From Pararhodobacter aggregans (GTDB taxonomy: Bacteria > Pseudomonadota > Alphaproteobacteria > Rhodobacterales > Rhodobacteraceae), in NCBI RefSeq assembly GCF_003075525.1, contig NZ_QDDR01000008.1, positions 1 to 64,000 of the forward strand: a stretch of DNA of 64,000 nucleotides, given 5' to 3'. Position numbers and translations under genes: made by a program. How positions within the stretch are numbered: position 1 is the first letter of the stretch; each line of letters begins with the position of its first letter. The notes below the pieces were generated by a model. The model saw only the letters and a list, made by a program, of their open reading frames with translations. It ran no database searches and was not told where the DNA came from. This document shows, in pieces, positions 56,880 through 59,648 of the stretch.

Positions 56880-57012
56880 GACCTTGTCCTTGCCCTTTGC
56901 CTCAAGGTGCCGATCCGGGGGCCTTCGGTTCATCGCGGCGGTGAAATCAACACCGTCTTTTCCCGCGTCCCGCTTTGGTGCATACCTGCGCCAAACCGAA
57001 TTCGAGGACATC

Positions 57013-58305
57013 ATGCACGACATCCGCGCCATCCGCGAGAATCCCGCCGCTTTCGACGCCGCCCTGGCCCGCCGGGGTCTGGCGCCGCAATCGGCCGCTT
57101 TGCTGGCGCTGGACGAGGGGCGCCGGGCCAAGATCCTCGCCGCCGAGACGGCGCAGGCCGAGCAGAACCGCGCCTCCAAGGAAGTCGGCGCCGCCAAGGG
57201 CCGGGGCGATGACGCCGAGTTCGAGCGCCTGCGCGCGCTGGTGGCCGAGAAGAAGGCCGAGATCGCCGCGCTGACCGCCGAGGCCGCGGCCGAGGATGCG
57301 GCCCTGACCGCAGCCTTGGAGGTGATCCCGAACCTGCCGCTGGCCGAGGTTCCGGATGGCGCTGACGAGAACGACAACGTGGAGATCCGCCGTTGGGGCG
57401 AGCCCCGGGCGCTCGATTTCACCCCGGTCGAGCATTTCGACATTCCGGCGGTGAAGCCCGGTCTCGATCTGGGGTTGGCCGCGAAACTCTCGGGCAGCCG
57501 CTTCATGGTGCTGAAGGGCGCCGTGGCCCGCGTCCACCGGGCGCTGGCGCAATTCATGATCGACACGCACACGACCGAGCACGGGCTGGAAGAATGCTGG
57601 ACCCCGGTGCTGGTCAAGCCCGAGGCGATGTATGGCACCGGCAACCTGCCGAAATTCGCCGAGGACAGCTACGAGACGACGAACGGCTGGTGGCTGATCC
57701 CGACCTCGGAAGTCACCATGACGAACTTCGCCGCCGGTGAGATTCTGGACGGCGCCAGCCTGCCGGTGCGGATGACGGCGCATACGCATTGCTTCCGGTC
57801 CGAGGCAGGCTCGGCCGGCAAGGACACGACCGGCATCCTGCGCCAGCACCAGTTCGAGAAGGTCGAGATGGTGACCCTCTGTCACCCCGACGAGGCGCTG
57901 GCCGAGCACGAACGGATGACGGCCTGCGCTCAGGCGATCCTGGAAAAGCTGGAGCTGCCCTACCGCACGGTGGTGCTCTGCACCGGCGACATGGGCTTCG
58001 GGTCGCAGAAGACGCATGACATCGAGGTCTGGCTGCCGGGGCAGGGGAAATACCGCGAGATTTCCTCCTGTTCCACCTGCGGCACCTTCCAGACCCGCCG
58101 CATGAACGGCCGTTTCCGGCCCGAGGGTGGCGGCAAGCCCGAGTATCTGGCCTCGCTCAACGGGTCCGGTCTGGCGGTGGGGCGCTGCCTGATCGCGGTG
58201 CTGGAGAACGGGCAGCAGGCGGACGGGTCGGTGACGCTGCCCGCGGCGCTGCATCCCTGGCTTGGCGGCAAGACCCGGATTTCGGCCGAGGGCGCGCTGG
58301 TCTGA
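57013..58305 (+). CDS. serS: Seryl-tRNA synthetase
   Basis: A class II synthetase that charges tRNA-Ser and tRNA-Sec. The N-terminal coiled-coil arm is about residues 30-105. Catalytic motif 2 is [23 protein letters not shown] and motif 3 is [23 protein letters not shown] 57013 ([11 protein letters not shown]) matches the family start and gives 430 aa. It is divergent from the sigma gene and followed by the REPIN-like cluster. Confidence 0.97.
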
Positions 58306-58338
58306 GGCTGCCGCAGGGAGCCCAGGCGTGGTTCGGAT

Positions 58339-58750
58339 GGTGCGTGCGGAGCACGCACCCTACGGGTTTGTCGCGATCATGGGCGGAGGTGGGATGAAAT
58401 CCCACCCTACGCGGTTGCGCCTGAGAGGCCTCGCCTCAGGTCGGACGGTGCCCCTGTAGGGTGGGGTTTCATCCCACCCAAGCGGATCCCGTTGTGGTTG
58501 GCCGGTCCATGGGTGCCTTTGCGTTGGTGGGGTGAAATCCCACCCAACGCGGCAGGCACGAGAGGGCTCACGTCAAGTCGGCTAGAGCCCTGTAGGGTGG
58601 GATTTCGTCCCACCTTGTGGGGTCGGTCGCGGAAGGTGCGTGCAAGCACGCACCCTACCGGGCGGCCAATCCCGCGGGCGCCGGGAGGGGGCAACTCGCC
58701 GCCACACCCCCCGTAGGGTGCGTGCTTGCACGCACCTTCCGCGACCGACC
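58339..58750. repeat. Cluster of seven REP-like palindromes, last two as a REPIN-like pair
   Basis: Two palindrome types alternate in the 464-bp gene-free gap between serS and murQ. Type 1, GGTGCGTGC/GCACGCACC with flank CCTAC, is at 58339-58365, 58635-58658 and 58713-58736. Type 2, GGTGGGAT/ATCCCACC with the same flank, is at 58388-58414, 58455-58478, 58521-58550 and 58590-58614. Bases 58621-58658 and 58713-58750 are 38-bp perfect inverted copies around a 54-bp spacer, the layout of a REPIN. No gene is visible in the gap. Confidence 0.9.
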
Positions 58751-58769
58751 CGGGCGAAACCGCCCCGCC

Positions 58770-59648
58770 TCACCCCTGCAACGCCGCCGCCAGCTTGCCG
58801 CCCGTGGCCGCGAGCCGCGCCTCGGCCGCGTCCCGCGACAGCCCCAGCGACAGCATCACCACCGCCACCTTGATCGTCCCGCCCTCGGCCAGCGCCGCCT
58901 CCGCCGCCTCGACCGGGGCGTCGGTCAGGTCCGCCACCATCGCCACCGCCCTTGCCTTCAGCTTGGCATTGGTCGGGCGCATCTCGACCATCCGGCCGCG
59001 GTGGACGTAGCCCAGGCGGATCATCACCCCGGTCGACAGGCAGTTCAGCAGCACCTTCTGCGCCGTCCCCGCTTTCATCCGGGTGGAGCCGGCGATGATC
59101 TCGGCCCCGGTATCGGCGACCAGGGCAATCTCGGCCTCGCGCGCCAGCGGCGCCTCGGGCGCGTTGATTATCGCCAGCGTCAGCGCGCCGACCTCCCGCG
59201 CCGCCCTGAGGCCTGCCCGCACGAAGGGCGTTCGCCCCGAGGCCGCGACGCCGATCACCACATCCGCTTCGGACAGGCCCAGCGCGGCCAGCGCCGCCGG
59301 GGCTTCGGTCAGGCTGTCCTCGGCCCCTTCCACCGCTTTCAGCAAGGCGCCGGGGCCGCCCGCCATCAGCGCCACCGCCCGGTCCGAGGGCCAGTCGAAG
59401 GTCGGCGGCAGCTCGGCCGCGTCCAGCACCGCCAGCCGCCCCGAGGTTCCCGCGCCCAGATAGATCAGCCGCCCGCCGCGCTCCAGCCGCAGGGCGCAGG
59501 CGTCGATGGCCCGGGCCAGCATCGGCAACGTCCCGGCCGCGGCGGCAACGGCGGCGAGTTGCGTCTCCAGCAGCGCGGCGGCGAGATCGCGGGTGGGCCA
59601 GGTCTCGATCCCGGCAAAGCGGGCGGGGGCCTCTTCGGTAGAGCTCAT
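58770..59648 (-). CDS. murQ: N-acetylmuramic acid 6-phosphate etherase MurQ
   Basis: MurQ cleaves the lactyl ether of MurNAc-6-P to give GlcNAc-6-P in peptidoglycan recycling. The SIS-domain signatures IYLGAGTSGRLAVLDAAELPPTF (with the catalytic Glu), VIGVAASGRTPFVRAGLRAA and STRMKAGTAQKVLLN are clear. 292 aa, normal length. The start ATG 59648 overlaps the stop of the sugar kinase by 4 bp. Confidence 0.96.
   Translation of the reverse strand: MSSTEEAPARFAGIETWPTRDLAAALLETQLAAVAAAAGTLPMLARAIDACALRLERGGRLIYLGAGTSGRLAVLDAAELPPTFDWPSDRAVALMAGGPGALLKAVEGAEDSLTEAPAALAALGLSEADVVIGVAASGRTPFVRAGLRAAREVGALTLAIINAPEAPLAREAEIALVADTGAEIIAGSTRMKAGTAQKVLLNCLSTGVMIRLGYVHRGRMVEMRPTNAKLKARAVAMVADLTDAPVEAAEAALAEGGTIKVAVVMLSLGLSRDAAEARLAATGGKLAAALQG

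Follow-up and report, generated by a model that had tools for sequence, protein, structure and literature searches.

The gap between serS and murQ holds a pile-up of GTAG-tagged REPs of two classes, very probably copied by a class-matched RAYT that is encoded elsewhere in the genome. The window, the 64-kb stretch of DNA that we analysed, is the first 64 kb of contig C8 in a 5.08-Mb genome of 32 contigs (G000). Between the two convergent genes, seven palindromes lie within 398 bp (58339-58736). Three are of type A, with a GCGTGC stem (written GTAGGGTGCGTGC..GCACGCACC), and four of type B, with a GGG stem (written GTAGGGTGGG..CCCACC); type B as counted here is a mix of stems whose next pair is A/T, G/C or T/A, together with a few others. 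The tail reads GTAGGGTG in six units and GTTGGGTG in the fourth, which carries GTTG where the other six carry GTAG. These seven palindromes are GTAG-tagged REPs, and the initial annotation was right to see seven palindromes of two related types. Taking the strand of a unit as the one on which its tail precedes its hairpin, the order is -A -B +B -B +B -A +A. The types, said to alternate, run A B B B B A A and do not strictly do so. Units 2-3, 4-5 and 6-7 form like inverted pairs with their tails facing inward, and unit 1 is single. The features of the region are as follows.

57010..58305, plus strand: serS (serine-tRNA ligase), left flank, convergent; TIGR00414, 463.6 bits
58339..58363, minus strand: REP unit 1, type A, with a longer loop (GTAGGGTGCGTGCTCCGCACGCACC); hairpin z -4.23
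58388..58410, minus strand: REP unit 2, type B (GTAGGGTGGGATTTCATCCCACC); palindrome and tagged-pattern searches
58456..58478, plus strand: REP unit 3, type B; palindrome and tagged-pattern searches
58526..58548, minus strand: REP unit 4, type B, GTTG tail; palindrome search and consensus match
58592..58614, plus strand: REP unit 5, type B; palindrome and tagged-pattern searches
58635..58658, minus strand: REP unit 6, type A; palindrome and tagged-pattern searches
58713..58736, plus strand: REP unit 7, type A; palindrome and tagged-pattern searches
58388..58478, no strand: REPIN-like pair of units 2 and 3, 91 bp; fold z -6.57; kin to units 4-5
58526..58614, no strand: REPIN-like pair of units 4 and 5, 89 bp; fold z -6.13; units 4-6 align with the first three units of the gap in the sister species G208
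58620..58751, no strand: REPIN-like pair of units 6 and 7, with 39-bp perfect arms and a 54-bp spacer; fold z -12.65
58770..59648, minus strand: murQ (N-acetylmuramic acid 6-phosphate etherase), right flank, convergent; NF003915, 340.5 bits, over the cut-off (281.3 bits against the equivalog TIGR00274, below its cut-off of 302)

All six copies of GTAGGGTG in the window fall inside the cluster, against 0.31 expected (0 of 100 shuffles reach six), and the tagged hairpin pattern was found six times in the window against 0.04 expected. Folded as single-stranded DNA, each of the three pairs beats its shuffles (fold z-scores above). The last two units had been read as a perfect 38-bp inverted pair around 54 bp; the pair and its spacer are as described, with arms of 39 bp (58620-58658 and 58713-58751), and a repeat-finding search returns these arms as 43 nt at 98%. 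The 39-bp arms exceed the REPs, 15 outer bases also being inverted copies, and among the like inverted pairs compared units 6-7 are the sole pair with 15 of 15 outer bases in common. Units 2-3 and units 4-5 are identical at 73 of 91 positions, including 31 of 45 in the spacer (a score above all 500 shuffles), and this resemblance ends close to the pair borders. A search for known RNAs gave only microRNA hairpin families, all under the gathering score, and a plasmid search with a 34-nt REP query gave no match.

The RAYT-insertion reading put forward in the initial annotation implied further copies in the genome and a RAYT gene, and we found both. A genome-wide search returned 87 exact type A and 53 exact type B palindromes, with controls at 0, and a wider tagged palindrome pattern matches 153 times (reversed-pattern control, 0). 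From 53 stretches taken around listed copies (948,024 bases including the window, with 149 pattern matches inside), we identified 168 units within four mismatches of the consensus, 98 of them A and 70 B, and none in the reversed sequence. These group into 72 clusters of one to six units. The serS-murQ cluster scores six by this finder, which misses unit 1 with its longer loop, and two clusters reach six; with seven units it is by our own count the richest of the 72, and the finder may miss units elsewhere. Exact A or B palindromes are listed several times on each contig up to C10 except C4, and none on C4, C11 or C12; these three contigs could be other replicons. The same REP with its flanks recurs at L165:10484 and L176:303, close to one end each of C3 and C7. 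This probably reflects overlapping assembly or a repeat, and the unit table described below counts it once.

By rough gene calls, 144 of the 168 units lie outside called ORFs, and of the 139 that fall between a pair of called genes, 96 have convergent neighbours (murQ being miscalled in this set). In having palindromes in the 20-40 nt range with GTAG at their base (six of the seven units), a high copy number and a mostly intergenic location, the cluster and its genomic relatives match the GTAG REPs of Di Nocera et al. 2013 (PMC3733652). Those, too, have a short, perfect stem and a small loop, form dimers and clusters, sit between convergent genes, border RAYT genes and supply a TAG stop codon through their GTAG. 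The same preference for convergent sites would be expected if the hairpins were host-selected 3′-end elements, bidirectional terminators or mRNA stabilisers, kept for their function and not spread by a transposase. We consider this very improbable. A terminator search found no U-tract terminator-like site in the cluster region, copy number ranges from 0 to 153 within one genus and tracks the presence of a RAYT, and next to the same genes the two sister species have units of different class and in different numbers.

The units are arranged non-randomly with respect to one another. REP neighbours within 200 bp (n = 96) comprise 42 like inverted, 7 like tandem, 35 unlike tandem and 12 unlike inverted pairs (Fisher 2.5e-9), and taking the first pair per cluster gives 25, 3, 16 and 2, respectively (p 1.2e-7). 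E. coli BIMEs are likewise built of inverted REP pairs of related subtypes, where unlike subtypes, Y with Z, are paired. Here, in contrast, inverted neighbours are alike (42/54) and tandem neighbours unlike (35/42). Like inverted pairs make up 16 of 18 two-unit clusters in the fetched stretches, and three larger clusters show the nested order -B -A +A +B. This arrangement fits a like pair as the unit, one pair having been inserted into or beside another, as has been reported for Pseudomonas (PMC3116915).

In the REPINs of Pseudomonas fluorescens SBW25 (Bertels and Rainey 2011, PMC3116915), like inverted doublets fold into a long hairpin and REPINs are inserted into or next to REPINs, as appears to be the case here. 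The next-neighbour distances of those doublets peak at 71 and 110 bp, whereas like-pair spacers in G000 run from 5 to 178 bp with mostly unrelated interiors; B pair spacers are partly grouped at 43-47 bp (6/13). Outer flanks are common to pair partners no more than to shuffled partners, the serS-murQ locus apart. Given these variable spacers, unrelated interiors and unshared outer flanks, the pairs lack the fixed spacing and conserved whole unit of a REPIN. The REPIN label of the initial annotation is thus apt for the inverted pairing of like REPs, found three times at serS-murQ, and not for a fixed length.

Two further features of the arrangement were seen in the fetched stretches. Unlike tandem REPs are often 11-14 nt apart (13/35), which hints that insertion downstream of a hairpin may favour a certain distance. 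By eye, two nested -B -A +A +B clusters (L169:8154-8446 and L144:8411-8701) seem to surround the same GC-rich stretch of ~75 bp in opposite orientations, perhaps a further repeat family.

A profile search with NF047646 identified three RAYT loci in G000. The first, RAYT-A (C10:53185-53616), is intact and has A REPs on both borders. It scores 173.6 bits against a cut-off of 80, its residues 1-157 align with E. coli TnpA-REP (4er8, 153.8 bits), HLH and NPVKHG are present, in keeping with the HUH motif and catalytic Tyr context of a RAYT, and its TAG stop codon falls in the GTAG of the adjoining REP. RAYT-C (C2:435519-435950) is bordered by a third REP class, GTAGGATGGGCAATATTGCCCATC. RAYT-B (C10:132745; L136 near 8745) is a pseudogene among REPs. 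Both flanks of the REP cluster adjoining RAYT-B (95 and 93%) are found on a G208 contig with an intact RAYT bordered by GCGCATTCATTGCGC REPs, so RAYT-B and this GCGC-class RAYT are probably one locus. Of 172 units in the stretches taken from G000, 4 are GCGC-class REPs, as are 10 of the first 100 of 107 matches in G208. In G000 we found no intact RAYT with B REPs at its borders, though B units remain; G208 has one. A cognate RAYT with the same REP class at its borders is thus present for type A through RAYT-A, and for type B in the sister species.

The Pfam model PF01797 finds no Y1 transposase in G000 and is not associated with REP number among 198 genomes of the family (5/40 vs 13/158, p 0.37), so we first suspected RAYT-less REPs, that is, orphans moved by another enzyme. 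PF01797 scores both RAYT-A (15.9) and E. coli RayT (15.7) below its 23-bit cut-off, and its negative result therefore reflects a limit of the model. NF047646, which gives E. coli rayT 179 bits, does find RAYTs, most of those examined carry REPs, and we regard the orphan reading as refuted, with virtually no probability left to it.

REP number follows RAYT presence across genomes. Within the genus, the 10 of 18 genomes with a RAYT hold 13-153 copies and the 8 without hold 0-2 (Fisher 2.3e-5), a concordance in 18 of 18. NF047646 scores a RAYT over the cut-off in 63 of the 198 genomes of the family sample: in 30 of the 40 with at least 10 REP copies and in 33 of the 158 others (Fisher 2.8e-10), leaving 10 of 40 REP-rich genomes with no RAYT over the cut-off. 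We also examined 57 RAYT loci (20 from the family sample, 17 from the genus and 20 further ones picked from the family list), of which 56 gave a match. GTAG palindromes occur in or within 500 bp of 42 of these 56 loci and are absent from 14, with G214c counted twice.

At several RAYT loci, palindromes of the border class sit inside the RAYT frame, at one spot between the HUH and Tyr motifs (L223, L221, L216, L219, L232, L199, L193, L195, L230 and L249), where they code for peptides such as CRVGFHPT. REPs within the frame between these motifs are already a described feature of TnpA-REP subclass 2.4 (PMC6006769). RAYT-A departs from that pattern in carrying no in-frame REP, and our search found none in the other A-bordered RAYTs listed.

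These associations are consistent with a mechanism in which a RAYT (TnpA-REP, a Y1/HUH transposase) would copy each REP of the matching class as single-stranded hairpin DNA. We infer from sequence comparison both the role of the RAYT as the copying enzyme and the direction of change set out below. Class B would be the population common to the sister species and class A mostly an addition in the G000 lineage, where the resident RAYT is bordered by A, the class so added. At serS-murQ, B pairs, at least one of them probably from local duplication, and A units would have gathered between two gene 3′ ends.

The corresponding gap in G208, whose SerS is 97.7% identical to that of G000, differs in copy number. 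There serS also adjoins murQ, and between them lie five units (-B +B -A +B +A) against seven here; three of the five carry changes. By local alignment, the first three G208 units correspond to units 4-6 and the last to unit 7; G208 has no counterparts of units 1-3 and one extra B. Most of the serS-murQ pile-up might stem from local duplication and recombination of older REPs with little fresh insertion, a reading compatible with RAYT-driven copying genome-wide. The kinship of units 2-3 and 4-5, spacer included, the outer flank shared by units 6-7 and the G208 counterparts of units 4-7 all speak for it. Against this, the two B pairs cease to resemble each other close to their borders, and the extra B in G208, together with the lack of units 1-3, indicates that units are also gained or lost singly. 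We hold duplication as the main source of the pile-up to be possible and rather unlikely. RAYT-driven insertion, as the initial annotation read the cluster, is thus supported, with local duplication also having built part of it. The hot-spot label given to the gap is indirectly supported by its being the richest cluster, and is weakened by the contribution of local duplication to units 2-3 and 4-5.

Among the murQ neighbourhoods examined, most of them short, serS and murQ adjoin only in G000 and G208; five further members of the genus (G198, G206, G214, G201 and G199) have no serS match in the stretch around murQ. The cluster, in the gap at 58305-58770, may thus sit at a rearrangement junction. 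In wider relatives, the GTAGGGTG palindrome was found in 0 of 80 named serS loci, several of which end at contig ends, and a murQ match in 0 of 80 within the flank taken.

We then compared orthologous loci between the two species. Both flanks of 28 of the 72 G000 clusters were found in G208 stretches, and 23 of these loci entered the unit table, which leaves out c57 (a duplicate of c44) and, because of its distance limits, c2, c3 (beside the RAYT), c26 and c33. At these 23 loci, the 34 A units here face 7 A, 6 B and 1 C unit in G208, with 20 lacking a counterpart, while the 27 B units face 20 B units and 1 A unit, with 6 lacking a counterpart. Units shared within class, 7/34 for A and 20/27 for B (Fisher 3.5e-5), would follow from class B being the common population and class A the added one. 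Eleven G208 units lack a partner in G000, 8 of them B. All seven shared A units are perfect in G000 and carry one to four changes in G208, a comparison that favours perfect units in G000, where loci were picked for holding an exact copy. Over 1.2 Mb of G208 taken without such selection, only 1 A unit out of 10 is perfect, against 28 B units out of 37. The exact A:B count of 87:53 in G000 stands against 6:79 in G208 (among the first 100 of 107 matches), two of the six G208 A matches being one self-complementary palindrome read twice.

Automatic unit pairing is uncertain at multi-unit loci; in the serS-murQ cluster it matched B with A once and left unit 6 unpaired, contrary to the local alignment. 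At the simpler loci c59, c69, c41 and c15, an A unit here lies opposite a B unit in G208, with strand and approximate position in agreement, and from these cases existing REPs may have been overwritten in place. Since c59 appears to lie directly against the end of a gene, such cases may also reflect repeated insertion into one preferred site.

The class difference extends to a shared RAYT locus. RAYT-A lies between a gene for an AI-2E-type permease (NF008930, 105.8 bits, under the cut-off) and lepA. The DNA upstream of the B-bordered G208 RAYT matches that upstream of RAYT-A reciprocally at 94%, and G201, G214, G206 and G198 have matching flanks on both sides. This locus is bordered by A-like REPs in G000, G206 and G198, and by B REPs in G208, G201 and G214. 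Orthologous RAYTs with different bordering REP classes, the old class decaying, have been termed an orthoswitch (Nunvar et al. 2013, PMC3686654), and G000 (A) and G208 (B) present such a pair. On the mechanism, the authors "can only speculate". What sets the present sister pair apart from the cases described there is a drop in identity inside the RAYT gene.

Identity between RAYT-A and the G208 RAYT is 91% as far as residue 77 and falls to 54% beyond it. In 100-base windows, the gene matches that of G208 at 88, 92, then 69, 74 and 44%, and both outer flanks at 88% or more in most windows printed. The second part of RAYT-A is nearest to A-bordered RAYTs, those of G198 (70%) and of G062 and G206 (68%); in G208, the second part of the gene holds a B REP pair that is lacking from RAYT-A. 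In an alignment to 4er8, the identity break precedes residue 82 of RAYT-A; in E. coli, K82 lies in the DNA-binding alpha3 helix that contacts the REP, as described in PMC8266576. With classes assigned from nearby REPs, 11 of 12 A-bordered RAYTs have RL at residues 78-79, and 7 of 7 B-bordered ones have GA there. RL is also seen in one RAYT of class D and in two that are unassigned, and GA is found in several further classes.

With its first 77 residues matching the B-bordered G208 RAYT and its remainder closest to A-bordered RAYTs, the resident RAYT of G000 may have changed REP class by replacement of a segment from the alpha3 helix onward. The REP population would then have followed, as suggested by the new A units and by the shared A units, perfect here and decayed in G208. 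We advance this reading tentatively, at somewhat short of an even chance.

Phylogenetic tests of the exchange were mixed. We built trees from 52 rows, dropping the G000B and G198p remnants, the duplicate G214c and the contig-cut G091. In careful trees, the first 77 residues join G000A with G208b (100/97), and the remainder, loop and tail included, joins G000A with G206 and G198 (80/40, weak). A/B label changes on quick trees number 7 for the first part, 2 for the second part without loop and tail, and 5 for the post-loop piece alone. In AU tests on quick trees, a first-part tree grouping G000A with G206 and G198 outscores the free quick tree by 5.3 log units (p 0.61), and for the second part, stripped of loop and tail, G000A with G208b is not rejected (p 0.47), so these tests favour neither side. 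On careful trees, the G000A, G206 and G198 grouping is 16.9 units worse for the first part and not rejected (p 0.169), and G000A with G208b is rejected for the second part (p 0.0125), in a test that includes the class-bearing loop and a group named after seeing the tree. Residues that agree with only G208b or only G206 divide 13:2 in the first part and 9:20 in the second (p 0.001), with the split point chosen post hoc. The difference between RAYT-A and the G208 RAYT looks like an orthoswitch by segment exchange, which the sequences make likely enough to test and leave unproven.

The cluster itself is ordinary for REP biology and belongs to a known kind of REP. Stop codons supplied by GTAG and a location close to the 3′ ends of genes (PMC3733652), like REPs within RAYT genes, are already-known parts of the system. 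Relative to the GTAG REPs and REPtrons of PMC3733652 as described there, G000 differs in having two main classes, only one of which, A, has an intact class-matched RAYT. The body text of that paper contains neither GTAGGGTG nor Rhodobacter, its 24 families appearing in a figure, and in a literature search that covered subscription journals thinly we recognised no paper on REPs of Rhodobacter, Rhodobacterales or Alphaproteobacteria. The possibly new part is the contrast between the sister species, in which both the REP class at the shared RAYT locus and the dominant class in the genome differ. This contrast makes the mechanism of the orthoswitch, and the segment of the RAYT that reads the REP stem, directly testable.
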